Below, one piece after another: positions 12,076 to 50,700 of a stretch of 64,000 bases of DNA. The notes below the pieces were generated by a model. The model worked only from the letters and a program-made list of their open reading frames with translations, searched no databases and was not told where the DNA came from. Each line of letters begins with the position of its first letter. Positions within the stretch are counted from its first letter, which is position 1. The DNA is from Sipunculus nudus. Lineage: Eukaryota; Annelida; Sipuncula; Golfingiida; Sipunculidae. The DNA lies in the NCBI GenBank assembly GCA_026874595.1, contig CM049308.1, forward strand, positions 17,358,001-17,422,000, given 5' to 3'. A program made the translations under genes and the position numbers.

Positions 12076-12330
12076 TCACGGGCTATAACATGGTTTGTAA
12101 CATCTGTACAAAATACTTCCTTTTGTACAACATCTACACCCGGTTGCTTCTTCCAGTTTGTTAGCATTACAACGTAATGTCGTGCCTCTGAGAATCAGCC
12201 CTGGCCTCTGAGCTTTCGGTTTGTTGCAAGCTATAGCCGGAACAAAATATTTCGTCGTCATTCCACTACATGTGGTGTCTGATGAATCTGGTTTAAATTT
12301 CACATCGATCGGTATACAGCCTTTTGATTT
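12076..12330 (-). CDS. Exon 5: C-terminal cysteine-rich module and stop
   Basis: The acceptor is cgattgcag|AAATC, and the stop TGA is at 12078-12076. The 84 residues have cysteines at protein positions 279, 295, 309, 328, 339, 341, 342, 351 and 355. These include GCRCC and a closing CYKPC. The spacing resembles small secreted cystine-rich folds, but I do not recognise the family. An odd count (nine) leaves one Cys free for an intermolecular bond or for pairing with the protease-like domain. Confidence 0.75.
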   Translation of the reverse strand, partial: KSKGCIPIDVKFKPDSSDTTCSGMTTKYFVPAIACNKPKAQRPGLILRGTTLRCNANKLEEATGCRCCTKGSILYRCYKPCYSP

Positions 12331-12403
12331 CTGCAATCGTAAACAAACAACTGTTAGGAAATCAATGGAAATATATGTCAAATCCACAGTTTAAAATTTT
12401 TAT

Positions 12404-12473
<70 letters not shown>

Positions 12474-12632
12474 CTCTGAAGAAAAACAACTCTGATGATC
12501 GGGTCTCATCCCGTGAAACAGACTGTTGTGAATGTGCAGTGTTGTTTTTCTTCAGTGATTTTCTTCAGAGTTATGCATCTCTGGCCTAGTCTGTAGGCCA
12601 CAGAGCAATTTACATCGGAGGGTAACACTACC

Positions 12633-12686
<54 letters not shown>

Positions 12687-12828
12687 CGAAGGTAAGATAA
12701 ACAGTGACGCCTTTTAGATAGACTTACTATTTTTTTAACACACAACTAGTTAGTCTATCTAAAAGGCGTCACTGTTTATCTTAACTTTCGCTTCAACTAC
12801 AGACTAACACGGCTATACCACTTATATA

Positions 12829-12908
<80 letters not shown>

Positions 12909-13334
12909 GAATGAATAGCCATGCTGGTTCGTTGTACGAAGAAATGAAACATGAATACACCGAAAAGTCGGTTCACTGCCGATGGGAAACGAACCCATGA
13001 CCTAACGATTGCCGGTTGCTTGCTCCATCCACTGAGCTACAGCAGGTCCCCGACCCCTCTGGGTATTTGCACACTTTTATAAGAACCAGCCAAGTGACGT
13101 CACGGTAGTGACGTCAGAGTACTACCCACTACATGTGTTGGCACAGCAACTTTGCATGCAGCAGGGAGAACTTGTGGCCTTATATGGTGTGCGGCATATA
13201 TTATATAGACAGATGAATGATTAGCCTTGCTGGTTCGTTGTACGAAGAAATGAAACATGAATTCACAGAAAAGTCGGTTCACTGCCGATGGGAAGTGGGA
13301 AGTGAACCGACTTTTCTTTGTATTCATGTTCATG

Positions 13335-13411
<77 letters not shown>

Positions 13412-16400
13412 GGAGAGAGAGAGAGAGAGAGAGAGATAATTTATTCACATAAAGATTTAAGACAAAATCAAACGCATTGCGAGTACTCCATGGAGTTTAA
13501 ATCCTCTGACCAGAGTGGCAATGGAAGTTGTTTTGAAGACTTTGGTTCGATTATCTTTTCTACATATTTAAAAAAAAAACTTTTTAGGGATATAGCAAGT
13601 TATTCATAACAAACAATCCACATAGGATTAGTTTCTGATGGCTCCAGCCAGTTTTTCCTTAAACGGTTATAAATGTCTTTACTACATTAACTAGGTTCAA
13701 TATGTCGGATATAAATGCCTATATTGAGTAATGAATTCAGGGTCAGGAATATTTGTGAGACGTTATATGTCTTTTGACAAGCTCCCCCAGTCTGTGGAAT
13801 TATGAATAAAAGCAGGCTGATGTACATTAATTTCATTATACAAAGTTTAATTTTATGAATTCCAATGATAAAAACTTACACCAATTTTATAAGGCAACTC
13901 CGCCGTTACTGTGGTAGCAGCTGTACCTACTGCTGGAGCTGAAAAAGAAATAAATGTTTACTTAAGGTTGCTGCATCAATGCGGCATGTAACAAAAATTA
14001 AAGTATAAAGGACATCCCAGATAGATGAGAAGCATTTCCCTGACGAATGAGTTAAACATAAAACAGGGCTTGGGCTTTCTGAAATCAAAAGCCCGGTCAG
14101 AAATCAAAGAAACAATACAGTATTCATCTTGTCCTGGCTTATCAATTAAAAAAATACTTTATCATGGATCCTTGTCAGCGGCACGTGCAGAAATTTGCAG
14201 TTAATTTTCTACTAAGCCAAACACGTACGGTCCATCTTCCATCCTCTGTTATGAAATATTTCCTAGATGACAGAAGCTATCATCACCACATTTTGTAGTT
14301 ATAAATATGCAAAAGTTTTGGTAGTGTTTCCATTGTGGCCTACTTTCAAGGAACCGTCATTATATTTTCAAGGATATCAATTTCTCCAAAAATTTGTTGA
14401 ATTTCAATGACTTCTTGAGATAATTAAGATGAGACATTTCTATACATGATATCCCATATACCTCAGTAACAGTTACAACAATAGCCACCAAAGTTTACAT
14501 GCAGATGAGGTCATATGTTTGCCAGCATTTAATTATCTACCAGGGGATGGAGTGGATGAGAAGCAGTAGAGAATATATTTGAATAACTTACTGAACATTC
14601 ACGGCTGGCAATAATATTTAAAATAATAAAAACATCGTTAGTTTTTAGTTCAAGTGACGGAAGGTTAACTGAGGTATAGCATTGGCGTTTTTTCCGTCGT
14701 TTCGTGACAAATCTAGAATTTTCTAGACCTAGAATTTTCTAACTTAACATCCATGGAGTTCATTAAAAATCATTGGTTAAAAGTCATGGTTTGTGCACCC
14801 CAGAAGAGCCTATGTATTTTATAATGTGGGTACCCTTGGGACTGGGCCCAACTGCCCACTTTATAGAGGTGCCAATTATATGGAGGTATAAGCTGGCACA
14901 TTCAGTGCTGCCACCTAAGGCCTGGTAAAGCTCTATGTATTTTAATGAAAATTTGTCCACATAAAGGCACATGTGATGACCCAAGGATTGCAGTCTGGTG
15001 CAGAAAGATTTTTATTTAGACCAGCCTAGAGAAGAAAGTTATCTTTCATGGGCCTATTTATTTTTTTCATGAATGAAAATAATACAACTTTAAATAGCCT
15101 TATATTTCAAAGTCATAAATCGTCGCCGGATCCTTTACTTTATCAATGTTTTTAATAGAAAAATTCCTTTTGAATTAAGATGGAACTTGGTTATGCTTTT
15201 TATTAATAATTTATCAATTATTATTTCTTATTCATTATTTTACCTTATTTAATCATCACATTCATTGTATGTTTCTAATAATTATATCTACTTAGTCTTT
15301 TATTTCGTTCTAAACTTGTTACAGTCCTTATTTTATTTATTTATCCTGTATCAGATTTACTTAAATAAGCTGGATAGGTTTATCAGTGTATAAACATGCT
15401 GTTATCAGTAAAATTTCTGAAGAAACCAGGAATATCCGGCGAAACATTAATTTCTTGGAGTCGAATTTAAAGGATCTCTAGGTTCCAAATTCAGGAGGAT
15501 CAGCGTACTTTTTATATTTTGAAAACAATTAAAAATTTAATAACTGCAAGAGTTTGGCAGCAAATCATTACTACCAATTAAAAACCAAGCATGTGAATTT
15601 GGATATAATTGTACAGGAAGAAAATTATTTTGAGCTGAAATACTCTCATTAATTTAGTAAAAGTCTTTAATATTTCACATGTATTTACGATCCATCTCCG
15701 ATCGATTACATAATATGTCGATTGTCTGTTTCACACAAGTCAGTTTGTTTACTTGTAATTATAGTCTATTTCGTCCATCTTGGACTATTTATGGTAGTCT
15801 CTTTTCGTCTATATGCAACATATAAAAACTTGATTTTGTCTCTTATTTTTACTGCACTGAAATGAAATAAATTGTGCAAACAAAGTGAAATAGTCCATGA
15901 AAATAGTGCCCTCTTTGGGACATTTTGTTCAACATAAATATCAACAGAAATGCTAAAACAATTTCACCTGGAACAGATAAGTTGGGAATCAGGAGACGAA
16001 ATTGTTAAAGACATTGAAAATATATAATACGAGGGGAACTTTAGTCAACTGTTGCCATTTCATGCATAAACCTACCATTGACTAATATTTTGAGAGGGAT
16101 ATCAAAGTAACAAGAGATAAAACATTTTCCATGGTTTTCTCGCCGCACTTTTGTTTTTTCCCATTTTTACCATCATGCCTAAGGTTTATCATCTTGCATC
16201 CATCGCAGTCGGAATGAGGAGGCCATCTCTGTTTTAAAAAACGCAAAAATGGTCCCATGCCTTTTTTTAAGTCGGACTATATCCGCCCGATTTTCCGGAC
16301 AATAACGGCTAAAATTATAATATTTGCATGAAAAATGTAAAAAATATTCGCCTGTCAACAACCAAGGCATGGCTGAAAAATACAAATTTTTCAATTTATT

Positions 16401-18150
16401 TGATACAATTATTTTGATCTTACATGGTCCTCTAGATTTAATTAATTCTTTTTTACAGGCGACGGTAAAGTCTCTTGTATTCGAAAAAAGAGACCACACA
16501 GACAACCCCTACGGATTCTGAGACAAAATAAATACGAGGGATAAATTTGGATAAATCCAATAATATATGATAGATTATTTTTTACCCGTATTTTCTAACA
16601 GTATTACCTTGTTAGTACAGAACAGGTGGATTTAGTATTTGAGAAACAAAGAGGGCAACAAATGCAACTGGGCAAAAGGCCAAGATCTGCACTCATTTTG
16701 ATCCAAAATAAACAACCGTCGTTCCCCTGTCCATATTTTTTAAAATTTAAATTTTCATTGAAATATTTGGAGACCAACTGACATACTAGAAAATTTGCCA
16801 CACTGGTTACATCAATTTCAGTCAGCCATCTTTTTTACGTAACGTGATTAACTGTTATAGAGAATTCGAAAGGGTTACGATGTCGTGTCATACACAAAAG
16901 CAACAACTCACAAAACTGATCCTCCATGACAGCACTCGCGCCCTGCGGTCCCAACAATTCATCAAGTAGAGGAAAAATGTTGGCGGCCACGCTGCACTTG
17001 TTCAATTCACAATTGGGATAATTGCGTATAATGATTCCAACCACGCGATTCCACTTGAACACTGGGGCCCCGCAGTCTCCATAACACGTGGCTTGCGTAG
17101 GCATAGTCGTCAGCATACAGATGTTCTTTGTTCCATCAGTTGTTATAGAAGTAATGCCAGCACAGCACGCGTTAGCCCCACTCCATTTCATTTGAACCGC
17201 TTGTATATTTGTTGCATCAGTTTCAGGTGTCATCGATGTCATCCCCCATCCACTCAGCATAACCGGTTCTTCCGGCGTAGGTACATGTGTTTTTGAACAT
17301 GGTAGTTCTGCCGGTTTACAGGTTGTCAATTCATAATCTCTTTCGATGATTATTATGGCCACCTCTTTATCCTTTGTATATCTTACTTCTTTTATTTTTC
17401 CTTCATTGGTTTTTGAGGGACCGCTATACAGTCTGAAATAACAGATGGATCGGTAAAACGCAGGGAAAAGATGCTTTGCATGGTGCGTCATTTATGACAC
17501 AAACACATGATATCTGTTACCAAATATTCCAACCATTTTGTCGGCTACATGTGGTTCATTTAATTTCTGCGTGCAAAAAAATTCTATATACCTATATGTT
17601 TGAATTATCTTCACGAGGCATAATATTTGTGGAAGTTTTACATCCCATATTCATTTCCAAATACTTTGTAATACCTCATTTTACGTTATTTTACGTAATT
17701 TGTCAAAACGGGGCAATAACTATATATATATGTTTTGATTTCGACTTAGGAATTTGCGTTATCGTTCTCTAACTTTTGCCAAATTTAGAACTTCTACAGG
17801 AGTTTATTGTCTTTTTCTGTGTCTGCCTTTGACCGAACAAAATAGCCGCGTCACATACGGGGGCGAGTAGCTCCACAGTAATAAATTGAAAACACTCAAC
17901 CCAGTCAACCGTGACACTGGTTGGTTACTTTCCACACTACAGCGTTTAGTTACAGTATTTTCATTGCTTTTGGCATATGAACATATATATGCATGTCCAA
18001 GAGAGCATTTGGAGCCACAATTACGTGATCTGGTCCGATTACAGGTACTGAGTTACTTAATCACACGTAATAGGATAGGTGAATAGTCACTACCAATATT
18101 AATTGTGTATTCATCATAATAAATTAGTCTTCCTGTTATTTCTCTGTTAT

Positions 18151-18210
<60 letters not shown>

Positions 18211-18322
18211 TATTTACATTCTGTGTAACTGAACTTTGCGTAAATAATCACTATGTACCAGCCCTTAGCATCCTGCTAGTAGAGCACTATTTGATTCGTT
18301 CTGCAAACATGTATACTATCGG

Positions 18323-18400
<78 letters not shown>

Positions 18401-19181
18401 AAAACCTCGTTGTGTCGAAGTCGAAGGGACTTGTGAATTTACTTCGTTCAACAGGAGTTCGAGACATCCGATATTCATTTTATTCAATCTCATTCGGCCT
18501 TTATTATTATTGATAAATACTACACATGTATAAGTCCTATATTACGTTGTTCTAATGAGTGTGTGCGTGAAAGAACAACATAATGTTATAAAAAAAATTT
18601 TTGTTAATAAAGAAGCACATACGTAACACCAAAATAGGATTAAGTAAATAAAAAAAGTGAAGCAGTATAGTGAGCTCTTTGGTAAATAAGAGTCAATCTG
18701 AAAGGTGTTATCTTCCTCCCTATACATAGAGTCCTGTCTGTTTATCCTAGACCCGTCGAATATGAGGATTCCATTATGTTTGGTTTATTAATAACTTTTC
18801 ATTTCGAATCAAGGCATGATTATGAGTGATTAATTGGTCAAACACGTAAAAAACGGACCAGGTGTGTAAACCATCGCGCCTGATGGGTAAGATCCTTTGC
18901 CGGAAATTATTATATAACTGGTCATCACGGCCGTAGGTATGATTGATGGACCGTTCACAACTTTTTTCGAAACATTCAAGCGACATGACTTCGAGTTAAG
19001 CAATAGAAATACTAGCTGGGGACCAACAAAACACTTCGACTATTCAGGTGTTTCGTCACATCCGAGTTCGACAAAAAAGGAGTTGAATTATTAAAGTTTT
19101 AACTGTTTTTGCAGGGACTTCATATTCAACTTCGAAACATGCGGGAATTCGAATTAAACGACTTCCACAAAACGATGTTAC

Positions 19182-19263
<82 letters not shown>

Positions 19264-22200
19264 TCCGGCTGGCCTAAAGAAATTATGGAATGGGAGTGCG
19301 AGGGATCCATGAGAATTATCAAGTCTCCCTGGGGATCATGATGCTCAACTGACCTCTGACACAGAGATATTCTATAAACTTAGATTGCTGTCATATTAGT
19401 ATTGTTGTAACTCTGTTTGCAACAGAAGTGAAGAATATATCAAATATGGTTACTGGGAGTTTTCGGAGCGTGGTACCGCGAGATTTCGAAATCACCTGCA
19501 TTTCTGTTTACATTGCAAACATCGACAAATTACACCAGTGAGCTTACGGATACGTTCGTCCATGAGAAGTAGTGCGGCCAAAAAGATCATAGAGAAAGCG
19601 CAAAACCTGCTTATGAATGCCCGTATAGGTGAGATAAATTTCAGGATTACATGCAAAAAGTGCAGACTGCAACGAGAGATTGTTTGATACAGTTACCAAC
19701 GATCGTTTTGCGGAGTTACACGCTTACATAGAGAAAGGTAAACGCCTAGAATGGGACAAATGTCGAGACCGCCATCGCAACAAGTTTTCACTCTAAGTTG
19801 CCAAACAGCCATCTCCAGATACCACTGAAAGTGGAGTAAGTCAAGCAGAAACGGATAACATCAAAAACAGGTGGGTGAAAACATTTCTTCTCGAGAACCT
19901 TCTACACATATGGTATCTGTGTTGCGTAGAGGGCTCAACTTTGCCGTCACGCCTGACCGGCTCCCTGTCAATGACATAATCCTAGCTGTAGAAACGGCAT
20001 GTAAACACATTGGGGCCACCTCCGATGAAGCGGCCTCCCTTCATGTTGATTGTGTCAAATTGATCCAGAATGCTAGACCCCCGAAAAAAGTAACATCTCT
20101 CGAGAGGAAAGACAAGCTCTAGATGATTTGAAAAATGATGACTCCATTTACACCATGCCGGCTGACAAAAGCCGCGCTGTAGTCGTAATTGACAAATCTG
20201 AATATGAGGCAAAAATGGAGGCCTTGTTGAGTGACACAAACATCTACGAAAAACTAAAAAAAAACCCACAACCATGTATTCTAGACAGGTCATCTCGGCT
20301 TTGAAGGACATTAAGGCATCTGGTGCTCTGACTCATAAACAATATCTTGAGCTATACCCCACTTCCTCCGTTCCCCCTAAATTGTACGGCCTCTCTAAGA
20401 TCCACAAGGCTGGCGAACCCCTGCGCCCTATAGTAGCCTCTCGTGGATCGGTCACGTACAATATCGCTAGATTTTTGGCTAAAATACTTGCCCCTCTTGT
20501 GGGTTAATCTCCACGTCACATCATGAACAGTAAAGGCCTGGTAGATAAATTATCCTGCATCAGATTGGCATAGAATGAGAGTTTGGTGTCTTATGACGTC
20601 ACTGCCCTCTTCACTAGTGTACCTGTGGATAAGGCCCTTAAGATTATCTTGGAACTGCTGGAGAATGACGAGACCCTCAACGATAGGACCGACTTAAATT
20701 CAGCCCAGGTCACGGCCCTTCTCAGGTTATGCCTCAAGACGACTTATTTCGTTTACAAAGGGGAGTACAATAAGCAGAAGGAAGGTGCCGCCATGGGCTC
20801 CCCAGTAAGCCCTATTGTGGCTAATCTCTACATGGAGAATTTTGAGGAGAAAGCCATCGCTTCATTCCCCCATCCGCTCAAATTTTCGCTATGTCGACGA
20901 CACCATCTCCTCGCTCAAAACCGCACTCATTGACCTCTTCACTGTCCACCTGAACAGCATCGACTCTAAGATACAGTTCACAGTGGAACATGTTGAGGAC
21001 AAGACGATTGCTATGCTTGACGCTAAGATTAAGATTCAAGACGACGGATCCCTTGAGTTCTCGGTGTATAGAAAAATCACACACACCGACCAATATCTGC
21101 AATTCGACAGCCACCAGCCCCTGCAACACAAACTCGGTGTGGTACGCACCCTCAAGCACCGTGCGCATGCAATCTGCAGCTCTCGGGAAACCCTAGATAC
21201 TGAACTCGACCATCTAGACAAAGTTCTTAGGGTATCGGGCTAACCCGAGAGAGGCTGCCCCTCACACGGACAAAATTGTGCCCCATCCTGGTACTGAGTG
21301 CTCTTTTCCTGTTAAAGGTCATGTCACGATCCCCAACGTGGCAGGCATTTCTGACATTCTAACCAGGAAATTCCGCAAATTGGGTGTTGCAACTCATGCG
21401 GTCCCTGCCAACTCCATCCGCAGACATCTTGGTACCCCCAAAGATAAGGACCCCATGTCGGATATGGGTGGTATTGTGTACCATCTCCAATGTGCAGACT
21501 GCGACCACCACTATGTCGGTGAAACGGGTAGAGCCTTTAAAATACGACACTCTGAACATCTAAAGGACGCTAATTCCCCCGTCTTCCAACATCTCAATAG
21601 TACGGGACACCATCTAGAAAAAGGCAAAATGGTTGACAAAGATTCACGCTGGTTCAAACGCGGCATACGCGAAGCTATGCAGATACGAAAACTCCAGCCC
21701 ACTCTCAACCAGGACCAAGGGCGCCACCCTCTCCCGAGAACCTACAACTCCTTGTTGTTGACACGTGACCGTTCGTGCCTCACGGCCTATGGCAACGGCT
21801 CAACAACAAACTAAGGATTTCCCCTGGCCTTGTTCACGTCATTCAGTGAACAAGTCTGGTAGAGACCAGACTAAAACTCTGCTTTCAAATACTTTGCATG
21901 TGGGTACTGTTAAATTGTTTCATATTTATTATGGTTACTTCAATTTGTCCATTTGGATAGATACAATAGTTAATCATGATGCATGTTGCTGGTCTCCTAT
22001 TGTGACATGTTGAACCTGATTTCTGAGTCTTAAAAAATTGCCTCCCAAAGGAAACAAAATAATGGAACTCCTGATTGCGGGTGTGAATATTATGTAGAGA
22101 GAAAATTGAATGATTTGAAAGACACTTTGTTGGGTGCAATATACACTCTCAGAAATACTTTCACAAATGAAACAGAAAAGTAATATTTAAGCTGTTAAGA

Positions 22201-25200
22201 GAAGAAACTAAAACGAATGCGACACAAACTGCAAAAATGGTACAAAGCGTGGAATAAGCTTGAAAGATATAAAATGAAAAAGGAGAAATTGACCGAGGAA
22301 AATAGAAAACTGAAAAAGTAGCAACATTTTTTCAAGCCAAGTTGTGACTTCTGTGATTAATATGCCCAAACAAAGAAGGTAACTTCAAAAAGGTAAAAAT
22401 AGGCCCACAGGATTTTGAGTGGATGAAGATAAACCTTTCATGATTCGTGGTGATTGTAGCATTTTTTAAAATAAAAATCATCAGGAACGAAGAAGAGTGC
22501 AAATTAAAGTAAAAGTAAAAGATATTGTTGAATATTTCAAGCTGCCTTGATTTAATTGATATACGAAATAACTTGAAATCAATGGCAGACTAGACCTGCT
22601 TTTATTTTTGCGTTGTTTACAAGATTTTTTAAGTAATGGCATTTCCCTCGGGTCTAGTTTGAAAATTTGAGGCAAACAGCAAGAAGAAAGGATACTGGAA
22701 GTTTAACAATGATTTATTAAAGATGAATCCTGCAAGGAATTGTCTATCACGAATTGTGGGATAAAATGGAAATTATCAAAGTATTCGACCAGAGAGTAAA
22801 CCATTGTTTACGCAAAGAACATTAGGAATATACTGAATGATCATAACGAGACAGTATCCTCTAGACTAAAATGTTTCGACAGAGGGAGAGAATTGACTGA
22901 CCTATGAGAATATTTCTAGCAAAGAGATACAAGTCACCAAGGGTTCATGACGCTTAGCTGACTAGAAAAACGTTCACAAAGGGAATTTTATCAATACCAA
23001 ATTTTTTAGGTGGTATCCCATTTCAACTGAGGCTCAGCTGGAGGATATGAGTAACGAAGATCTAATTTCAGGTTTCCAAGGAGATTTTTCAAGGAACTGC
23101 CTGGATGTCAAGTTAGAAGATTCTAGGTCCAATATTTACATTTGTACTCTGTTAACAGGCAACCGCTCAAGAAAAGGCGTTAACATTTGATAAAATCCAG
23201 GTGGTACCACCAGTCTGCAGGAACTGATAAAACACTCAATAATGCATGTGCATGCAAAGAATCATGGTGATGGATTTCATTAGGTGTTCAGGAACTGGAG
23301 GTTTCATATAATCTGTTTAATTATACTGAAGGGTATTTACAAGCCCTTTAGCTCAAAGGATAGGGTAACAGAAACCTAATGTCAGATTTAAAAGGATATT
23401 TTTCATGGACATCTCTGCATTTTAAATAAGAAGATTCTAGGTTGATAGGTTACGATTTGTACCCTGTTAACAGATGACTGCATCTTTGAAGGTATAAAAA
23501 AAAGAAAAAATGCATAAAAATAAGTGAAAAAAACAGGTGGTGCCACTAGTCTGCAGGAACTGATAAAACACTCAATAATGAATATGCATGTAAAGTATCA
23601 TGGAAATCAATGCATCAGTTGTTCAGATACTGGAGCTTTTTTAACACAGTTTTAATTATTCTAGGGGGAACTCCGAATCCCATAGCTAAGAGGATATGGG
23701 TAACAGAGACCTAATTTCAGGTCTGCAAGGAGACTTATCATGGGCCCTCCTGCATGTCAAGAAAAACGATTCTAGGTCCAGTCGTTACGATTTGTGCTCT
23801 GTTAAAAGATGACCGCATCGTAAGAGGTCTAAAGAATAAAGAAAAAATTGGTAAAAATATAAAAATACAGGTGGCGCCACCAGACTGCAGAAACGGATAA
23901 ACCATTCTATGATCAATATCGATGCAAAGAATCATGGTGATCAATGCAACAGTTGGCCAGATACTTGAGCTTTTGTATCAAATCTTCCGTTTTTATTCTG
24001 GGTGATTATTTGGAGCCCCATAGCTCAGAGGTTATGGATAACAAAGACCAAGGAGACTTTAATGGGGCTCCCTGCAAGTCAAAAAAGAAGATTCTAGGTC
24101 CCGTCAATACGATTTGAGTCTTGTTAACAGATGACTGCAACTTTTTCAGTCTCAAAATAGAGTTGTTCATTAGTTGTTCAGATACCTGCGCTTTTGTTTC
24201 AAATTAACCATTATTCTGGGGGGGGGGGGCGGGTATTTCGAAGCCCCATAGCTCAAAGAATAAGGGGAAAACATAATTTCAGGTTTCAAAGGAGATTTTT
24301 TATGGACCTCCAAGGATGTTAAGTAAGAAGATTCCAGGTCCAGTGGTTACAATATGTGCCTGGTAAACGGTCGGACAGACGGACGGGCAGACAAACGGAC
24401 AGACAGACGGACAGGCGGACAGACGGACGCCGGACAAATGGTGATTGCTATAGCTCAGATGACTTTCAGTCAGCAGATCTAAAATGGTCTAGTCCTTAAA
24501 AGGCTGAAAGGACAACTGTAAGACCAAACGTTTGATGAAGAAAATGAGGATTACCAGGTACTTTTGATCAGCTAGAAATGAGGTGGAGATATTATATTAG
24601 AAAACCTAAATCACGAACAACGCCTGAGGATGCATTATCTTATTAAAAAAGAAACTACTGCCAGTAAAATCATTTTAAGAATGTCTGTATAAAAGTAAAT
24701 ATAAGAAATAACGAACTATAGGTCACCGTTTCAGATGAAACATGTTCGACCATACTCAAATATGTTCAATAAGAACATTGAAAGGTATGCTAAAGAAAAT
24801 ATATAAATAACTTTTATAAAAAAAAATCTATAAGTGGTGTCATTATTTTAATTAAATAAAGTACAACTGCGATTTGAAAGAGGTTTTGCAGAGAAGTTAT
24901 TTTTTAACTCAACTTTTCCTACAGAAAATATAGGCATGCCTTAATATAAAGAGAATATGTTAATCTTGTAAAAGTTTCTTCAATTTATTCTTCAATTAAC
25001 TCTGTTATTTGAACGACTGAAATTTTTACTGCAGCGAAGCAACGTTTTGCGATTGATCTGAATTACCCTTTCACAAACTTCTAACTCCACTTTCACCTCG
25101 GGAAATTCAAATCAACGTTAGTATTAACGAACGTGTATGACTTACTTGATGCTAGTAGGTGAGGCCGCAGCACGTGCGCATGCCCCACACGTAAGCACCA

Positions 25201-26052
25201 CCCGATTAGAGATACACACACCAGAGCATTTTGTGATTCCCGAATCAATATAGACCATGGATTGTGAAGTCGTTGTATCTGTATTTGTAGCCCCTGTTGG
25301 TATAAAATATCAAATGTTTAGGTTTAGAACTAAATCGACCTGATAATATAAAGAGAGAACAATGATGACGCAGGATGTTTTGTTTGTTCAAAAGGTCTCG
25401 TCCGATGAAATTTATCATTTTTTAAAATTATATACATATACAACCTTCGATGATGGCATAAGTTCGACAAATTGTTAAAAAATGGTCTCTCTCTTTCTTA
25501 AATGCGACGGTTTTCTTGGGTTGTAGGGTCATTATCGAACAAATCACCAATGAGACTTAAAAATATCGCTGTATTTTATATCGAAAAAATCGCAGAATCA
25601 ATATGACTAAACTTCACCTGGCATCTTGGATTATAGGAGTATAATTGGTCAAGATATCAATTTTGAGGTTTAGAATAGAGATAGCCTGGTAAAAAAGTGA
25701 GATTTAAGCTGAAACCGGATGTTTTGTTTTTCACTTGTTTGCGTCCAATGAAATTTGGCAATTTTTTTAAAAATAATTTTAAATCAATTTAAATTTATAA
25801 TTAAAAGTACGCAACTGATCACAAATAACATGATAAATCACTGAAAGGTGTAAATAATAGTATAGTATCACTCGCCATTTGTCCTACAAGTAATGAAATA
25901 TGTAGTAGTCTTTTGTTACTTTCATACAACCCTAACACCCAGATGAGAGATAACCTACCTCCAATAATGTAGGAATCCCTCTTCAATCTTTTCAAAACAT
26001 TTAAGCCGCACACCGCGTTGATGTACAGCAAGATAACGACCAAGAGCTTCAT
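12076..26052 (-). CDS. Secreted serine-protease homologue (inactive chymotrypsin-fold protein) with C-terminal cysteine-rich module, five exons
   Basis: Exons are joined 26052-25959, 25293-25146, 17432-16912, 13938-13880 and 12330-12076. Every junction is GT-AG and the phases (1, 2, 1, 0) keep one frame, giving 358 residues. Residues 1-16 form a signal peptide ([16 protein letters not shown]). A short basic propeptide with KRLKR precedes IIGG (29-32), the usual mature start of S1 proteases. The His loop reads LTCGAC (A69 at the His position), the Asp segment reads KEVAII (E104), and the Ser loop reads CYGDCGAP (C201). The S1 pocket position before it is Ala, not Asp. SGWG and WNRVVGI are conserved. 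Residues 243-274 are a linker and 275-358 carry nine Cys. The protein is predicted to be secreted and catalytically dead. Such homologues act as cofactors or decoys in immune cascades of other invertebrates; that role here is inference. Confidence 0.82.
12406..12471. repeat. (AT)n array
   Basis: Pure AT dinucleotide run in intron-flanking sequence just upstream (gene sense) of exon 5. It directly abuts the hammerhead-like fragment at 12471. Confidence 0.95.
12471..12577 (+). ncRNA. Hammerhead-ribozyme-like motif in a Penelope-tail fragment
   Basis: CTGATGA at 12492-12498 is followed by a CGGG/CCCG hairpin (12500-12513) and GAAA at 12515-12518, the three-part hammerhead core. CTGAAGAAAAACAAC (12476-12490) pairs with GTTGTTTTTCTTCAG (12541-12555), enclosing the core. 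An outer TAACTCTGAAGAAAA / TTTTCTTCAGAGTTA pairing encloses that again. Penelope-like elements are known to carry hammerhead motifs in their terminal repeats, and another Penelope-tail sequence lies about 200 bases away. A T/T mismatch flanks stem II and no clean cleavage site is evident, so activity is doubtful. Confidence 0.45.
12636..12685. repeat. (AT)n array
   Basis: Pure AT run between the hammerhead-like fragment and the 40-base palindrome at 12686. Confidence 0.95.
12686..12822. mobile_element. Penelope-like tail fragment with a 40-bp hairpin
   Basis: The arm GCGAAGGTAAGATAAACAGT... (12686-12725) is inverted almost perfectly at 12752-12791, around a loop of about 26 bases. It is followed by 'ctacagactaacacggctat', a phrase I recognise from the ends of Penelope-like elements in other animals. 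Both sides are bounded by (AT)n arrays. The hairpin is seen directly; its Penelope origin is inference. Confidence 0.5.
12823..12904. repeat. Compound (AT)n(GA)n microsatellite
   Basis: AT repeats to about 12863, then GA repeats to 12904. This is the boundary of the SINE that follows. Confidence 0.95.
12907..13225 (-). mobile_element. tRNA-derived SINE, full unit
   Basis: On the minus strand TGTAGCTCAGTGGATGG (box A, about 13026-13041) and GGTCATGGGTTCG (box B, about 12988-13002) form a tRNA-like head about 75 bases long. The body carries two TGACGTCA palindromes (13095-13102 and 13109-13116). The same body lies next to a different tRNA-like head at 43.67-43.98 kb. The sequence ccatgctggttcgttgtacg begins the unit and recurs at 13226. 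It sits in intron 4 of the protease-homologue gene. Confidence 0.6.
13226..13338. repeat. Truncated second SINE unit with an inverted stub
   Basis: The first 60 or so bases repeat the start of the preceding SINE. The copy then turns back on itself: gttcactgccgatggg at about 13277-13292 is followed by gtgaaccgacttttctttgt, which inverts 13262-13285. This fold-back probably arose by template switching. An (AT)n array (13339-13368) and a GA array (13369-13435) follow. Confidence 0.55.
13339..13435. repeat. Compound (AT)n(GA)n microsatellite
   Basis: AT repeats to 13368, then GA repeats with one GGAGG interruption. Long open frames across it are repeat artefacts. Confidence 0.95.
13880..13938 (-). 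CDS. Exon 4: short linker exon
   Basis: The acceptor is tctttttcag|CTCC and the donor is ATTGGT|GTAAGT. The 59 bases complete a split Ser codon and then give 19 residues ([19 protein letters not shown]). This Ala/Thr-rich stretch is likely to be flexible and possibly O-glycosylated. It enters in phase 1 and leaves in phase 0, exactly as exons 3 and 5 require, which is the main reason to believe so small an exon. Confidence 0.72.
13939..16911 (-). other. Intron 3 of the protease-homologue gene
   Basis: About 3 kb of AT-rich intron between exons 3 and 4. I see no nested gene or intact mobile element in it. Confidence 0.6.
16912..17432 (-). CDS. Exon 3: bulk of the protease-homologue domain
   Basis: The acceptor is ttatttcag|ACTG and the donor is CAGTTTT|GTGAGT (phase 1). 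The 521 bases encode residues 82-254. [10 protein letters not shown] aligns with the DIAL segment (Glu for Asp), LSGWG is intact, and [11 protein letters not shown] aligns with CxGDSGGP, with Cys for the nucleophilic Ser and Ala for the second Gly. The domain closes with a helix-like stretch, [12 protein letters not shown], where trypsins end in a WI helix. An extra [11 protein letters not shown] tail leads into the linker. Confidence 0.82.
18155..18253. repeat. (AT)n array followed by a 14-bp hairpin
   Basis: The array at 18155-18205 runs directly into TAGTGATTATTTAC (18204-18217), which is inverted as GTAAATAATCACTA at 18240-18253 around a 22-base loop. The arrangement parallels the (AT)n-plus-hairpin module at 12636-12791. 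Confidence 0.8.
18327..18396. repeat. (TA)n array
   Basis: Pure TA run that forms the left border of the MITE at 18397. Confidence 0.95.
18397..19185. mobile_element. Tigger-like non-autonomous element (MITE) between TA arrays
   Basis: The left end AAGTAAAACCTCGTTGTGTC resembles the inverse of the right end, whose minus strand reads CAGAGTAACATCGTTTTGTG. Both continue with 'gAAGTCG'. The element sits between two (TA)n arrays, in keeping with TA-targeting Tc1/mariner/pogo elements. No transposase is present. It lies in intron 2 of the protease-homologue gene. Confidence 0.5.
19186..19259. repeat. (TA)n array
   Basis: Pure TA run between the MITE and the region of the Penelope-like element. 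Confidence 0.95.
19700..21243 (+). pseudogene. Penelope-type reverse transcriptase, broken
   Basis: In successive frames I read [19 protein letters not shown] (about 19710), [16 protein letters not shown] (about 20158), [20 protein letters not shown] (about 20380), [18 protein letters not shown] (about 20585, RT motif A), [18 protein letters not shown] (about 20788) and [11 protein letters not shown] (about 20883, the YVDD active site). Stops fall near 20505 and 20571, and the frame changes at about 20120-20270 and 20880. The catalytic Asp residues are still readable, but the gene cannot produce one protein. Confidence 0.82.
21278..21817 (+). pseudogene. Penelope GIY-YIG endonuclease domain
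   Basis: About 178 residues in one frame. GGIVYHLQC (residues 64-72) and YVGETGR (79-85) are the paired GIY and YIG motifs. Arg90 and the following EHL supply the expected catalytic-side residues. The CxxC next to the first motif (QCADCDHHY) matches the zinc-finger-like linker of Penelope endonucleases. The domain is intact by itself but out of frame with the reverse transcriptase, so it is a relic of target-site nicking activity. Confidence 0.8.
22240..22910 (+). repeat. Short coding-like relics, probably LINE-derived
   Basis: Near 22208-22322 a lysine-rich helix is readable ([19 protein letters not shown] and continuing to a stop). Near 22690 there is [15 protein letters not shown], which resembles the linker between endonuclease and reverse transcriptase in LINEs (G-x-WK-x-N-x-x-LL). 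Stops interrupt both. Origin in a degraded LINE is plausible but not proven. Confidence 0.35.
22930..24485 (+). repeat. Pearl-like tandem-core repeat element, copy 2
   Basis: The left flank (aagggttcatgacgcttagctgact) corresponds to that of copy 1. Five diverged core units follow, marked by 'gggtaacagagacctaa'-type lines near 23045, 23355, 23697, 24030 and 24260. They carry variants of the palindrome: ggtggtaccacc, ggtggtgccac and an exact GGTGGCGCCACC at 23870-23881. A (GACG/GACA)n tract spans about 24364-24432. The terminal tatagctcagatgac...cagcagatctaaaa closes it at 24485. It lies in intron 2 of the protease-homologue gene. Confidence 0.65.
25146..25293 (-). CDS. Exon 2: region of the catalytic-His loop
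   Basis: The acceptor is ccaacag|GG and the donor is ATCAA|GTAAGT. The 148 bases leave phase 2. The exon encodes [18 protein letters not shown], then a [13 protein letters not shown] segment that matches the C-G-x-LIS-x-x-x-VLT strand of trypsins, then CGAC where trypsins have AAHC. The flanking cysteines of the His-loop disulfide are kept while the catalytic His itself is Ala. Confidence 0.82.
25959..26052 (-). CDS. Exon 1: signal peptide, propeptide and IIGG
   Basis: The ATG at 26052-26050 opens [16 protein letters not shown], a textbook signal peptide with a likely cut after G16. Next comes [12 protein letters not shown], then IIG. The exon ends in phase 1 at the donor GAG|GTAGGT, splitting the second Gly codon of IIGG, a position often seen in S1 genes. 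The residue before IIGG is Tyr rather than the Arg or Lys cleaved by activating proteases. Any cleavage may instead be at the KR pair four residues earlier. Confidence 0.82.
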
Positions 26053-26102: not shown

Positions 26103-26109
26103 CTTTATA
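26103..26109 (-). promoter_or_regulatory. TATA box of the protease-homologue gene
   Basis: On the minus strand TATAAAG lies about 50 bases upstream of the ATG. That places the expected transcription start near 26075 with a 5' UTR of only about 25 bases. The spacing is normal for a TATA promoter of a secreted effector gene. There is no experimental start, so the UTR length is inference. Confidence 0.6.
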
Positions 26110-26394
26110 AGTATTGAATGAAATGGATCCTCTTTTTTGATTGGTAATTAATTTTTCTCAATGAATATGTATCGCTTCCAGTTGTCCAATAGCTATGTTG
26201 TTTTGTGTAAGCGACCTCAGTCACTGAACCTACGTCACTTGCGGCATAATAGAATAACATGAGTACTGCGCATTACATAAACCTCTAAGGATGTACACTG
26301 GTGGAGAGCTTTTGCATTTTGTTTCTGTCTAGAAGCTCTGAATAAACAGTGTCAGAATGGGTTTTATTCAGATCGGTTAGTGGTTAAGGAACCA

Positions 26395-30589: not shown

Positions 30590-32348
30590 AATAATTTCTT
30601 AAAATGTTAGGGGATTAGGAGACTATAAGAAACGGAAACAAACTTTCCATTGGCTTCATAAACATAAGGCACAAGTAATATTACTACAAGAAACACACAG
30701 TACACCCAAACAGGAACATAGCTGGAAATCGGAATGGGGTGGCAGAATATATTTTGCACATTGGACAAACAAAGCTAAGGGTGTATGTATTATGGTTAAA
30801 AATAATATAAATATTGAAATTCATGATATAATATGTAACAAAAAGGCCAATACATGGTCTTAGACACTACAATAGAAGATACTAGATTAACCCTGGTTTA
30901 CATTTATGGTCCAAATCACGACGACCCAGATTTTTTTTATTAAAATTATGGATATTGTAGAAACATTACCAATTGATAATAGATTACTTGGTGGGGACTT
31001 TAATTTAGTTCTTAATACTTTAAATGATAAAAAAGGAGGTCGGGCACAGAGTCATAGAAGAGCATAAGGAGTAATCAATACATGGTTAAATAATATAGAT
31101 CTTGTAGACATCTGGAGAGAACAACACTCTCACCAAAACCAATACACCTGGAAAAGACTCAATCCAAGAGCAGTCTTTTGTAGATCAGACTTTTTTCTTA
31201 TTTCAAGAGGTCTTATCTCTGTCGTTCAAAAATCAGATATTCTGCCAGGTTTTAAAACTGACTATTCTGCCATTGAAATTATGCTTGAGTTAAAACTAAA
31301 TAAGAGAGGGCCTGGTTTTTGGAAATTAAATTGTAAGCTATTAAATGATGCAGAATATATTAATTTAGTAAAAGAAGTCATAAAAGAAACCGAAGAAGAT
31401 AATAAAAGCGCCAATCCAGCACTATTGTAGGATACTATTAAATGTAAAATAAGAGAAGCCACAATAGCATATTCTATTAAATTAAGTAAAAAGAAAAAAA
31501 CAAAACTTCAGGAATTGGAAAGTTCATTGAAAATATTAGAAGAACAGTATACCAAATTTCAAGATGATGAGATAATAGAAGAGATTAAAGAAAAGAAATT
31601 GAGGATTGAAAAAATAATACAAGAAAAAAACAGAAGGAATTTTTTTATTAATGAACACAAGTCCTTGCCTGAAGAAGACAGAACCTACTGCGATAAAGAT
31701 ATATCTAAAACAGAAATTTTAAAATGCTTAAATTCTTTTAAATTGGGGAAAACACCAGGTTCAGATGGTCTACCAGTAGAATTTTATAAAACATTTTGAG
31801 AAGACATAAAAACTTATTTGACTGAGAGTTATAAATATTCATATTCAACTGGAAAATTAAACATTACTCAGAGACAGGGAGTAATAACCCTAATTCCTAA
31901 AAACAGCTAAAGATCCCACCTTACTTAAAAACTGGAGACCAATATCACTATTAAACGTCGATTATAAAATAATTACTAAATGTATGGCCCTTAGATTACA
32001 GAAAGTTCTTCAGGAGTTAATACATCCGGACCAAACTGTTTTTTTTAAATAGATATATAGGGGAGAGTCTTATTAGAATATATAGCCTTATCAATTATTG
32101 TAAAAAAAAAATCAAAGGTAATATTATGACAATCGATTTTGAAAAGGCGTTTGATTTATTAGAATGGCCATTTATCCAGAAAGCATTAAAGTATTATAAT
32201 TTTGGACCCTCATTTTGTAAATGGCTTGAGATCTTTTATAAAGACATCTCATCTTGTGCCATTAATAATGGATTGGCCACTAGATTTTTCCAAGTGGGTA
32301 GAGGAGTACGTCAATGATGCCCACTCTCACCATACCTTTATATAACTT
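30590..32348 (+). mobile_element. Decayed L1/Tx1-type LINE, 3' truncated
   Basis: An apurinic endonuclease-like domain is followed by a reverse transcriptase in the order typical of L1/Tx1-clade ORF2. The frame is broken several times. The element stops abruptly at about 32348, exactly where the left arm of the long inverted repeat begins. It lacks the YxDD motif, the C-terminal region and a tail. Confidence 0.8.
30603..32343 (+). pseudogene. LINE ORF2 relic: endonuclease plus N-terminal half of reverse transcriptase
   Basis: Readable pieces are NVRGLGDYKKRKQTFHWL and LLQETHS (endonuclease N terminus, from 30603), LLGGDFNLVLNTL (about 30984, the GDFN motif) and GFWKLNCKLL (about 31316). These are followed by a lysine/glutamate-rich linker (31440-31650), LGKTPGSDGLPVEFYK (about 31743), NWRPISLLN (about 31930), TIDFEKAFDLLEW (about 32127, motif A Asp) and CPLSPYLY (about 32319). 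Premature stops include TAA or TAG codons near 31066, 31428 and 31799 and a TGA at about 32317. Frame changes occur near 30930 and 31905. No function remains. Confidence 0.8.
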
Positions 32349-35149: not shown

Positions 35150-35890
35150 GAACCCGAGAACATGCACCAATTACAAAAAAAGTCACTACTGAAATATTAG
35201 CATGGGTGCACACAACACAAAAATGATTTTAGGTGGCGCTATCAGTCTTGAGTACGAGCAAGCCATCAAATATGTATGGACTTGAACAATTTCAGGCAGA
35301 TACTTCAAACCCCTTTTCGGCTATGTGCACCGATTAGAAAAAATAATTGTAGGTGGCGCCACAAATCTTCTATACAACTATTCCAGATGTATCGACATAT
35401 CGAATAACTTCAGGCTGATATGTCAAATCACTTCTGAGGAATAAGCAGGAGCATACAATGCAAAATTACTGTAGGTGGCGCTGCCTTCTTGCATACGATA
35501 TATACATATGGCCAATTTCAGGCTGATATATCAAATACCTTAAATATTGATTGATGCAGTGGGCACCACTAATACCCGAAAAAAACTGGAGAGAATTGTT
35601 GGAGAGAAGAGTTTCAGAGATTATTTTTGTGAAGTATTGAGCAATTTGGCAATACAGTTTCGATGAAGATTTTTAAATATTTTAGCTTTTTCTTTATAAA
35701 ATATAATTAAATGCAGATAGCAAAAAATAAGGAAAATCCGATAGAGCTGTTTAGATGACTAATTTTTGGGATAAAATTGTTGATGCTAGCTTCAACCGTT
35801 TTTGAGATAGCATGGGTAAACGTACGGAAGACGGCGGACGGACGACGCTGCGCCATCGCATAAGCTCACAGGTTTGCTAAAAAAATTCTG
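35150..35890 (+). repeat. Second pearl-like family with about 120-bp core units
   Basis: Three units spaced about 120 bases apart contain 'taggtggcgc' (near 35231, 35350 and 35472) and 'caatttcaggc(a/t)gata'. They are followed by a GACGG-type stretch (about 35830-35850) and the terminal sequence 'cgcataagctcacaggtttgctaaaa'. The layout (cores, tetranucleotide tract, terminal stem) parallels the family at 3.67, 22.9 and 41.3 kb but the core sequence is different. Confidence 0.5.
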
Positions 35891-43608: not shown

Positions 43609-44000
43609 CAATATCCGGTCGGTGGCCTTACCACTTGGCTAAACCCGACTCCCTCCCCCTCTGTGTAATTGCACACTTTTATAGGAACCAGCGAAGTGAC
43701 GTCATGATAATGACGTCATTGTCTGACCCACTACATGTGTCGGCACGGCGACATTGCATGCAGCAGGGAAAACTAATGGCCTAATATGGTGTGCTGCATA
43801 TATCATATTTAGATGTATGAAAAGCCATGCTGGTTCATTGTTTACAGATGGAAATGGTATACATAAAAAAGTCGATTAACTGACGGTGGGAATCGAACCC
43901 ACGATCTTCCGATTTCCGGTCGGTGGGTTTACCACTTGGCTACGCCAGATTCCCTTCCCCTCTGTGTATTTGCACACTTATAGGAACCAGCGAAGTGAAG
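43607..44000 (-). mobile_element. tRNA-derived SINE, tandem units
   Basis: On the minus strand the segment at about 43875-43950 reads as a near-complete tRNA. It has GGCGTAGCCAAGTGGTAAAC (box A, D arm), a CCGACCGGAAATCGG anticodon-side stem and GATCGTGGGTTCGATTCCC (box B, T arm). The body carries TGACGTCA at 43697-43704 and 43711-43718, as in the SINE at 12.9 kb. The line tctgtgta.ttgcacactt...aggaaccagcgaagtga appears at both about 43660 and 43960, so a second unit is partly present at each side. Confidence 0.62.
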
Positions 44001-47785: not shown

Positions 47786-47800
47786 GTTTTTGCACACACC

Positions 47801-48646
47801 ATGCACCCATTCTTCACTCCGCCTCCGTCCGATCCGGCAAACCGCCTCGCTTTGGAGGAGGCCATTCAATCTATGTTAGCCAAACGGGCAATTTTCGAGG
47901 TTTCCCCATCCACCTTGGGGTTTTACTCTCGCCTTTTTCTTGTTCCCAAACCGCACGGCCGTTGGCGCCCGATCATAGACCTGAAGCGCCTCGATTCGTT
48001 CATCCCTCGGCCCCGTTTCGGATGTTCAATATCCATGCTGTGCTCCGCATTGTTCGGCGGATGGATTGGGCGTTCAAAAAGAGGCCTTACGGATGCCTAT
48101 TTTCACATTCCCATCCATCCCGCGTCTCAACCGTTTCTTCGCTTCGCGTATCAGAACCGCGTTTTTCAATTCCGGGCCCTTATGTTCGGGATCACCGTGG
48201 CCCCCTGGGTTTTTGACCATGCTTGTTCACCCGGTCACGAGTTATCTCGTTCACAGGGCATTTCTGTGCTCCCTTATCTGGACGATTGGCTGGTCCATGC
48301 GGCCGATCGCTCCCTCTTACTGTCGCATCGCTCCCGGGTTCTCAACTTACTTCGGAACCTTGGCTTCCTGGTCAATACGGAGAAATCTCTTCCCACTCCC
48401 ACCCAGTCCATCCAATTTCTGGGTGTCCCGCTCGATTTTGCGTCCGGCACGGCGTCGCTCCCGCGAGATTTTGCTCTCACGCTCCGCTGCCTAATTCGTT
48501 CCTTTCTCACGCGGCGCTGTGTAGACTCGCGCACAGCAGCTTCTCTCCACGGTGCTCTCCACTGGGCCGCGTCCTTATCCCGTTCGGCCGACTGTACCTC
48601 CGTCCGATTCAGTCTATCTTGCGCCGTCACGGCCTTCTCCGTTTAA
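47801..48646 (+). pseudogene. DIRS reverse transcriptase domain
   Basis: A continuous 281-codon frame holds the polymerase motifs. KPHGRWRPIIDLKRL lies near 47949, LTDAYFHIPIH near 48086 (motif A Asp), GITVAPWVF near 48188 and YLDDWLVHA at about 48273 (catalytic DD). VNTEKS and QFLGVPLDF follow. PYLDDWL is the DIRS form of the YxDD box. The domain itself has no internal stop, but the protein leaves its frame at about 48560-48600 before RNase H. It copies element RNA in active relatives. Confidence 0.85.
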
Positions 48647-49140
48647 CCTCGGTTCGTCCTACGATCCTCCCGTTTTGGCTCACCTGGCGGTCCCTTCGTC
48701 CCTGGATTGACCTTTCCTTTCTCCTGCGCGGCGTTCCTTTTTCCATGGATGTCACTTGCACCATCTATACCGATGCGTCTCTCCTCGGTTGAGGGGCCCA
48801 TCTTGCCGATCTTCGCGCTTCGGGGATATGGTCCCCGTCGGACCGTCTGCTCCATATCAATATCCTCGAACTGCGTGCCGTCCGTCGTGCGATCTCCCAC
48901 TGGTCTCCCCGCTTGATCGGAAGTCACATTCTCGTCCGGACCGACCATACCACGGGGGTGGCATATATCAACAGGCAGGGCGGTACTAGGTCTCCATCGC
49001 TCATGCTGGAGACTTACCTTTTGTTCGATCTATGCATCTCTCTCCGGGCGTCGATTCGTGCATCCCATCTTCCGGGCGTGTCGAACATCCTTGCGGACGC
49101 ACTTTCCCGTCATCCGGAGTCTCCTCCTTCCCCGCCGCTC
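48600..49140 (+). pseudogene. DIRS RNase H domain with one in-frame TGA
   Basis: In the +1 frame YTDASLLG is followed by TGA (48790-48792) and then GAHL; related proteins have a Trp at this place. ILELRAV, TDHTTGVAYINRQGG and HLPGVSNILADALSRH follow, giving the D-E-D-D type residues and the usual closing block. The TGA, probably a Trp codon changed by one transition, and the upstream frameshift block expression. It would remove RNA from the RNA/DNA hybrid in a live element. Confidence 0.8.
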
Positions 49141-49499
49141 CTTCCGCTCCCGGTTGTTCGGAGTGTTTTCGCTCGCCTGGGGCGGCCGGAATTCGATCTG
49201 TTCGATTTTCCGTCCCCCCCCCCCCCCGTGCTCATGCCTTCCGAGACGCGTCTACGTCACCCTCGCGACCGTCTCCCCGACACCCTGCCGTCCGGGTGGT
49301 CTCACCGGTATCTCTTTGCGTTTCCGGCGCCTCATCTCATCCGCCGTGTCCTTCTCCGCTTGTCCCGCGCGGACCAGCCTACCCTTCTTCTCATACTCCT
49401 GGTTCAACCGGCTCCCTGGTTTCCTCTGTGGCGCTCGTTCTCTCTCGCCCCCGCTTCTACTACCGCTCCGCCTCGCGCTCCCGTCATTCCCTCGAGCGC

Positions 49500-50700
49500 G
49501 TCGCCCATTTCGGTCGTGCCCTCTATGCGCATGCGTGCTCTCCTCGGACACCTCACGGATCAGGGCATTTCAAGTCCGGCTGCTCTCCTTGCCTCGGCTC
49601 CCCGGCGCCGTTCTTCGGACCGCATCTATGACTCCCGGTGGCGTCTCTTCACCGAGTGGACGTCTTCCCGGGGAATCTCCCCTTAGATCCGTCGCTTGCG
49701 GCTGTTTTGGGATTTTTCGTGTTCTTACTGCAGGATAAACATTTATCCTATCCCTCTCTGCGTGGCTATCGTGCCGCCCTGCTGTCGGTGCTCCGTCCGC
49801 TGGGTCACGATCGTGACCTTCATCACCCGTTGGTGTCGGGCTTTCTCATGGGGGTTCCTGCCCGTGCGTCTCGTCCTCGGTATGTTGCGCCTTCCTGACG
49901 CCTGGACGTCGTCTTACGTCACCTCCGGGAACCCCCTTATGAGCCGTTGCGTTCGGCTCATCTTCTACATTTATCTCGGAAAACGGTTTTCCTCCTCGCT
50001 CTTGCATTGGCCGGTCGCCGTTCTGAGCTTCATGCCCTCGTGGCTGCTTCGAAATTCACGCAAATTGCGGCCGACGGTTCGTCGGCCACCCTACATTTTC
50101 CTCCGGATTTTTATCGAAAGAACCAAAATTTCGATGATCCTCCGTCTGCTTGGCACGTTCCGGCCCTCCCGAACGGTCCGTACCGTTATGCAGCTCCCAA
50201 TTGCCCGGTTCGTGCGTTAAGTTCTTCTCTTAAAGCTACTCCGTCTTTAAGGGGGGGGGGGGGGGGGCGCAAGAAGTTGTTTATTTCCACAAAAGTCACA
50301 ACTTCCAATAAGGAGATTAGCCCTATCACCATTAGTGCGTGGCTCAAGCTACTATCGTCGCCGCATATGATTCAGCTTCTCCATCCACCTTAGACCAACT
50401 TCACCTCCAGGCTCATGCCATTCGTGCTCTTTCGACTTCCTTACTCCATTTCTCCGGGATCTCACCCAATCAATTGGTCAAGAAAGGGATACTAGAAATC
50501 CCCATCTACTTTCACCAGCTTTTATCTAAAGGCTGTTCAGCTCCAGGCATCGGGCCTTTACTCCCTAGGCCCTGTGATCGCGTCGGGAGAGGTCCTCCAA
50601 TTTTCCAGGCCATCTTCTTCCTCTCCGTCTGTTCCACCGCCGAAGTCGTCTGCTGCTCCATCCCAGCTCTGAGATTCTCCTCGTTCCAGCGTTACAGGTA
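49500..50700 (+). pseudogene. DIRS tyrosine recombinase, broken
   Basis: The N-terminal SAM-like part reads LGHLTDQGISSPAALLAS and IYDSRWRLFTEW. It continues after a frameshift near 49680 with FFVFLLQDKHLSYPSLRGY. TGA at 49896-49898 precedes RLDVVLRHLREPPYEPL, where relatives have Trp. The catalytic core is readable: GRRSELHAL (about 50013, first Arg), AHAIRALSTS (about 50411, H-x-x-R) and STFTSFYLK (about 50504, catalytic Tyr codon 50523-50525). TAG at 50493-50495 stands where a Trp is expected. A poly-G tract near 50251-50267 and a shift near 50345 further break it. In live elements this enzyme inserts the circular DNA. Confidence 0.8.

Follow-up and report, generated by a model that had tools for sequence, protein, structure and literature searches.

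Proteins that keep the fold of the S1 (trypsin-like) serine proteases and have lost catalytic residues are an already known kind of S1 homologue. In the insect Tenebrio molitor there are 125 inactive S1A homologues. The replacements seen most often in them are those of His57 by Gln (55) and of Ser195 by Gly (26) or Thr (21); Asp102 has changed in 13 of these sequences, and the Ser195 replacements listed in the available part of that survey do not include Cys (PMC11172050; this and the other articles below are cited from partial texts). The scabies mite inactivated serine protease paralogues (SMIPP-S), a multigene family, bind complement proteins through a site lying apart from the former active site (PMC4031079). 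In vertebrates, S1 pseudoproteases that include HGF, protein Z and haptoglobin serve as ligands of receptors, as cofactors or as scaffolds; PRSS23 has an RRKR motif and no Ile16-Asp194 switch (PMC13194640). Here, we describe a gene of Sipunculus nudus, located in a 64,000-nucleotide stretch of DNA (C3:17358001-17422000, hereafter the window, meaning the whole stretch), which encodes an S1-fold protein with all three catalytic residues replaced, the nucleophile by a cysteine. It seems that the lost nucleophile has taken on a structural role, which all intact copies of the gene found here preserve.

The window gene and its replaced catalytic residues

The gene lies on the minus strand (26052-12076) and was rebuilt from the sequence as five exons with 358 open codons and a TGA stop; its four introns are all GT-AG and the splice phases are consistent, as the original prediction had it. 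The exons are the following (the signal peptide, with its likely end at Gly16, was called by eye):

25959..26052, minus strand: exon 1, putative signal peptide, short propeptide with a furin-like RLKR, and start of the S1 domain (DSY-IIGG)
25146..25293, minus strand: exon 2, first half of the S1 domain, with C42, C46, C55, C58 and Ala at the His57 position
16912..17432, minus strand: exon 3, remainder of the S1 domain
13880..13938, minus strand: exon 4, Ala/Thr-rich linker
12076..12330, minus strand: exon 5, C-terminal domain of 84 residues with 9 Cys, followed by the TGA

The S1 fold read originally from the letters alone is supported by the Pfam Trypsin profile (PF00089), which matches residues 30-236 with an expect value (E) of 5.1e-15 and 56.3 bits against a cut-off of 20.6, and the IIGG, SGWG, His-loop cysteines and CxGD loop are all present. 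No clip domain was found, Pfam at E up to 10 giving only Trypsin and a sub-cut-off Wza_C match, and the best NCBIfam match (E 0.14) was under its cut-off. About 12 residues separate the likely end of the signal peptide from IIGG. Of the 23 Cys of the protein, one belongs to the putative signal peptide, while the S1 domain has 13 and the tail nine.

Profile alignment to solved trypsins bore out the chymotrypsin numbering used here, and placed the following codons:

25181..25183, minus strand: Ala codon at the His57 position (residue 69)
17363..17365, minus strand: Glu codon at the Asp102 position (residue 104)
17072..17074, minus strand: Cys codon TGC at the Ser195 position (residue 201), Cys in all 15 family members
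17090..17092, minus strand: Ala codon at the S1-pocket position 189 (residue 195)

These alignments confirm the four residues first proposed (A69, E104, C201 and A195) and show that the strand 214-216 is also changed, to Ile, Arg and Asn. The original description is correct as far as it goes; it did not mention C55, the changed strand, the furin-like site or the gene family, and it missed that exon 5 encodes a separate conserved Cys-rich domain.

With its S1 fold and its replaced triad, the window protein is by sequence an S1 pseudoprotease, and an active S1 triad is absent from all of the 15 intact family members presented below (His57 in 0/15, Asp102 in 1/15, Ser195 in 0/15). A nucleophile-position Cys in the PA-clan fold is known from the viral chymotrypsin-fold cysteine proteases, which need the catalytic His; unlike them, the family combines Cys195 in 15/15 members with His57 in none. 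The earlier opinion that the protein is neither a serine nor a cysteine protease thus extends to the family, whose members are almost certainly non-catalytic. A changed Asp102 is uncommon, being seen in 13 of the 125 inactive homologues of the Tenebrio survey (PMC11172050). On a six-frame motif scan of the window, an alternative exon restoring His or Ser was rejected: no TAAHC-type His loop was found, and the sole GDSGGP-type Ser loop was the GDCGAP of the gene itself. The looser matches, GDSG followed by a stop at 49124 and His-like loops at 35573 and 6782, are all outside the gene, and no other trypsin feature was noticed around them.

The gene family and its cysteines 55 and 195

The S. nudus genome (1.43 Gb, 153 contigs) was searched with exons of the window gene. 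With exon 3, 23 places came up at E up to 0.1, the window gene itself among them. Exon 2 gave 16 at E up to 10, made up of the gene itself, 13 places in the family and two weak matches (E 0.7 and 2.5), and exon 5 gave 23 at the same limit. Queries from the distant member P found 21 places with exon 3 and 11 with the tail. The closest exon 3 copies elsewhere in the genome reach an E of 3e-113 and 97% identity, and there is no second copy of the gene within the window. Scans of viral and prokaryote contigs found no relatives. At least 15 members with intact frames, the window gene (W) included, have both S1 exons and the tail exon in open frames:

W and members B-F: array at C3:17.16-17.46M
G on C14; H-J on C6; K, M and N on C8
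O on C10; P at C3:54.59M

Exon 2 of O and P was taken from flanking sequence, and the tails of D and I were assigned by nearness. The exon order of the window gene recurs in the copies, and Pfam Trypsin matched all ten members tested (of the 15) at E up to 0.01. The tandem array on C3 comprises six intact S1-plus-tail genes, and CCAAT and TATAAA were present in the five copies examined.

Several further copies are outside the 15-member counts, namely the decayed Q (C3:21.13M) and R (C14:11.867M), the fragment L050, and orphan or decayed tails at C3:17.280M, C3:17.2896M, C8:7.823M and C14:11.917M. Such decayed or orphan copies of an S1 or tail exon occur near intact genes or elsewhere (C14:11.867M corresponds to L042/L049, and C3:21.13M to L047/L048/L052); the copies at C14:11.867M and C3:21.13M carry stops or frame breaks. 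The readable pieces of Q show Cys at both 55 and 195, and R and L050 have Cys195 in their exon 3. The string LTSALC, tried as exon 2 of L044, was rejected as a weak chance match inside a repeat, the real exon 2 being further upstream.

Throughout the 15-row alignment, Cys55 and Cys195 are invariant, LTC[G/A]xC replacing LTAAHC. The codon for the first of them in the window gene is:

25187..25189, minus strand: Cys codon at position 55 (residue 67); Cys in 15/15 members, Ser in L051, Ala in the conventional trypsin L001

Both cysteines are constant across members down to about 27% identity, while position 57 varies (Ala in six members, Arg and Asn in three each, Lys in two and Thr in one). At position 102, nine members have Glu, five have Gly and one has Asp; Gly193 is found in 14/15 members (G has Ser) and Asp194 in 15/15. 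Hence, what had been described as the loss of a triad needs to be divided: the active site is indeed dead, but the Ser-to-Cys change is no random loss, since Cys195 is fixed together with Cys55, and of the three substitutions thought possibly fixed, this comparison of paralogues finds only Cys195 to be so, residues 57 and 102 being variable.

Two surveys of the same genome put these cysteines in context. First, a Pfam Trypsin search gave 688 candidate places, of which 150 were scored and 13 non-DegP loci were fetched; these had GDSG in all 12 readable Ser loops and Ala55 in all five readable His loops, and L001 has A55 and S195. Two of these loci (L003 and L004) are on a small contig and may be bacterial. 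Near-identical DegP/HtrA-like frames (GNSGGPL) also occur on many small contigs, C61-C90 and others (L014-L030), and are probably bacterial sequence, perhaps from a symbiont, in the same assembly. Second, a genome-wide DNA scan for C-x-G-D-C-G-[AG] gave 29 hits versus 12 in a backward control. Fifteen of the 29 are family exons (14 members and the fragment L050, G having SDCG instead). The remaining 14 hits, in 13 stretches, were rejected as other S1 genes with a Cys195 loop, for they showed no convincing S1 exon and their number is near that of the control. One has a stop inside the pattern, three have frames of less than 30 residues that were left unscored, and the scored frames reached at most 10.0 bits against the family profile, the best (L087) only across the motif itself; their E-values (from 3e-4), computed over a dozen short sequences, count neither for nor against. 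A Cys195 loop in an S1 setting thus appears only in the family, within this genome and at this sensitivity.

An exon 3 tree with 12 other S1 rows from the same genome placed the 15 members on one side of a branch with support of 100/98, in a tree that took in the Cys195 column and whose root was drawn at the midpoint. The nearest other row, on a long branch, was L051 (C8:69266170), which represents another pseudoprotease lineage close to the family and has S55, Tyr57 and G195. Because of the long branch and the midpoint root, its position as sister to the family is likely, not proven. The cysteines of L051 are at 42, 58, 168, 182, 191, 220 and the domain end, with one aligned a few columns from 122 and two others, none of them being at 55 or 195; Cys55 and Cys195 were probably both gained on the family stem.

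The cysteine counts point to the likely partner of each. All 15 members have the canonical pairs 42-58, 168-182 and 191-220. Members K, M, N, O and P have exactly ten Cys in their S1 domain, namely those six, one near 122, one at the domain end, Cys55 and Cys195, and their tail has another ten; in the remaining ten members there are 11 or 13 Cys in the S1 domain and nine in the tail, so that the S1/tail counts are 13/9, 11/9 or 10/10, the total being always even. In trypsin-like proteins the 122 Cys is expected to pair with the domain-end Cys, and if it does so here, Cys55 and Cys195 are left for each other. C46 was rejected as the partner of C195, for it is Phe in K, M, N, O and P, where C195 is kept. 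We therefore regard as probable, on these counts, a Cys55-Cys195 disulfide across the dead site, which would tie the former Ser loop to the former His loop.

Tail, selection, maturation and surroundings

All 15 members carry the C-terminal domain with 9-10 Cys, and nine Cys positions are common to all of them and to the open piece of the decayed Q. None of 13 tails (of 16 in hand) matched Pfam at E up to 1, and a PDB profile search with tails gave no match at E up to 10. In the genome, matches to the tail either adjoin S1 exons of the family, those of Q among them, or are decayed or orphan copies in the vicinity of such exons; the exceptions are two weak matches on C13 and C4 (E 0.23 and 4.3). 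The O and P tails match the window tail weakly (E 0.7 and 1.3), each adjoining its own S1 exons, and the P tail joins two clades, with E of 7e-16 to O, 8e-6 to K and 7e-4 to C.

The ratios of nonsynonymous to synonymous substitution rates (Ka/Ks) were calculated by the Nei-Gojobori method for 11 chosen pairs, with no significance test, the S1 part being exons 2 and 3; the exons are small and the ratios noisy.

S1 part, C3 array: W-B 0.21, W-C 0.27, W-D 0.37, W-E 0.48, C-D 0.37
S1 part, C8: K-M 0.49, M-N 0.35, K-N 0.38
S1 part, C6: H-J 0.27, I-J 0.31, H-I 0.37
Tail, C3 array: W-B 0.81, W-C 0.55, W-D 0.80, W-E 0.78, C-D 0.93
Tail, C8: K-M 0.30, M-N 0.50, K-N 0.81
Tail, C6: H-J 0.45, I-J 0.22, H-I saturated

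The S1 ratio is below 0.5 in 11/11 pairs, which, together with the exon 3 copies and the recurring exon order, makes the window gene more than a chance reading frame. The tail ratio exceeds that of the S1 part in 8/10 pairs. Within exon 3, each of the ten pairings among W and B-E shows a higher Ka in codons 1-55 than in codons 56-173.

The start of the S1 domain is preceded by a motif which we take to belong to the furin-like class of sites:

25978..25989, minus strand: furin-like R-L-K-R upstream of D-S-Y-IIGG, in 5/5 array first exons in hand (W, B-E)

The first exons of W and B-E read R[LF]KRDS[YF][IV]IGG, and those of K, M and N read [AV]A[RK][DE][NS]YLVGG, so that an aromatic residue, Tyr or Phe, directly precedes the Ile16-type start in the eight first exons read (of 15 genes). 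The Tyr before IIGG had been held against a normal trypsin-like cut, and this argument stands; what had escaped notice is that the aromatic residue is conserved and that the RLKR lies just upstream. A furin-like cut would leave DSY ahead of IIGG. Cleavage after the Tyr by a chymotrypsin-like enzyme may also occur, an aromatic or Leu P1 having been taken as a chymotrypsin-like site in 16/177 genes of an insect survey (PMC10036332).

Two putative promoter boxes lie upstream of the ATG:

26104..26109, minus strand: TATAAA box, about 55 bases upstream of the ATG
26140-26144, minus strand: CCAAT box, upstream of the TATAAA box

Both boxes are common to W, B, C, D and E, and K, M and N have CCTATAAATG. 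The surroundings in the window contain the following:

20574-20930, plus strand: RVT_1 fragment inside intron 2, E 7e-4
32021-32314, plus strand: reverse transcriptase fragment, E 1.5e-3
47786-49683, plus strand: RVT_1, E 3e-14 at 47786, with an RNase H-like frame at 48793
12974-13046 and 43878-43949, both minus strand: two tRNA family matches (43.5 and 40.2 bits), possibly short interspersed elements

Competing explanations and known systems

We propose, with a slight leaning in favour of this reading, that the family consists of secreted two-domain non-catalytic binding proteins, in which an S1 scaffold stapled at its dead site is joined to a faster-changing Cys-rich tail. In the S1-fold first domain, the catalytic machinery would be replaced by the fixed Cys55/Cys195 pair, most likely as a disulfide, which may hold the 193-195 loop in place of the Ile16-Asp194 salt bridge. 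Constitutive trimming is probable, at the furin-like site in the array copies and perhaps by signal peptidase in K, M and N; it would leave [DE]x[YF]-[ILV][IV]GG, with no switching on by zymogen cleavage. The conserved S1 part would serve as a scaffold or partner-binding surface and the faster-changing tail would provide variable specificity, possible settings being recognition or the regulation of extracellular proteases. A recognition role of the tail is offered tentatively. Equally tentative is the broader idea of a new S1 pseudoprotease class, in which the catalytic site was replaced once by a Cys55-Cys195 disulfide fixing the activation loop without zymogen cleavage, a new fast-evolving domain with 9-10 Cys was added, and the genes expanded in tandem arrays as secreted recognition proteins.

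Several observations weigh against this proposal. AlphaFold models of single exons, made without an alignment, had predicted local distance difference test scores of only 41.5 (exon 5) and 36.2 (exon 3), and the cysteines in question may have other pairings, be free thiols or bind metal. The tail ratios of K-M and I-J (0.30 and 0.22) are below those of the S1 part (0.49 and 0.31), and high tail ratios may reflect relaxed constraint. In addition, codons 1-55 of exon 3 have a Ka of 0.040 versus a Ks of 0.028 between W and B (few changes being involved), so the constraint on the S1 part is uneven.

The strongest rival, which we think rather unlikely, is that of an ordinary dead serine protease homologue, a regulatory cofactor like many insect homologues, in which Cys195 and the three changes are residues left by chance once constraint was lost. 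Inactive S1 homologues are indeed frequent (125/269 Tenebrio sequences; PMC11172050) and positions 57 and 102 do vary inside the family, but chance residues would not be expected to include two cysteines that stay constant over 15 members to about 27% identity although position 57 varies, nor to be accompanied by a conserved second domain. It is improbable that Cys195 is a working thiol, used for covalent coupling, redox or metal binding with Cys55, in place of a structural disulfide: a nucleophile-position Cys with Gly193 (14/15) and Asp194 (15/15) could keep a reactive loop, but no member has His at position 57, the window gene's strand 214-216 and pocket 189 are changed, and in K, M, N, O and P exactly two Cys, Cys55 and Cys195, are left beyond the expected pairs. 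Finally, a decaying pseudogene, or an artefact of assembly or gene prediction, is highly improbable, for although the copies at C14:11.867M and C3:21.13M have decayed and the window gene is known from DNA alone, its five-exon frame is intact, its exon structure is repeated in the copies, the S1 ratios in the array are 0.21-0.48 and the promoter boxes are shared between copies.

Dead proteases are usually described by their losses. Read as a stapled two-domain binding protein, the family offers a simple way for an enzyme to become a binding scaffold, and has a bearing on the question of how the trypsin fold may be held in one state without zymogen activation. No description of a Cys55/Cys195 pair or of such a tail was found in the literature searched, which excluded most subscription papers, nor was GDCGGP or GDCGAP mentioned there; residue 55 was not mentioned in the available part of PMC6524800 under the terms tried.

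Among the systems outlined above, the SMIPP-S resemble the family in being multigene secreted dead S1 proteins with changed triads and a binding action, and they are unlike it in being mite proteins that act on human complement (PMC4031079, PMC3181238). The SMIPP-S structure 3h7t was one S1 match among many in our PDB alignments. PRSS23, HGF, protein Z and haptoglobin are similar in being secreted and in having non-catalytic roles, and PRSS23 also in its furin-type motif; PRSS23 differs in keeping its triad, and for all four the available part of the article mentions no dead-site Cys pair and no such Cys-rich tail (PMC13194640). The insect S1A homologues share with the family the S1 fold, mostly a signal peptide, the replaced catalytic residues and often lineage expansion (PMC11172050). 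Unlike them, the S. nudus family has a fixed Cys195 together with a fixed Cys55, and an unmatched C-terminal domain.

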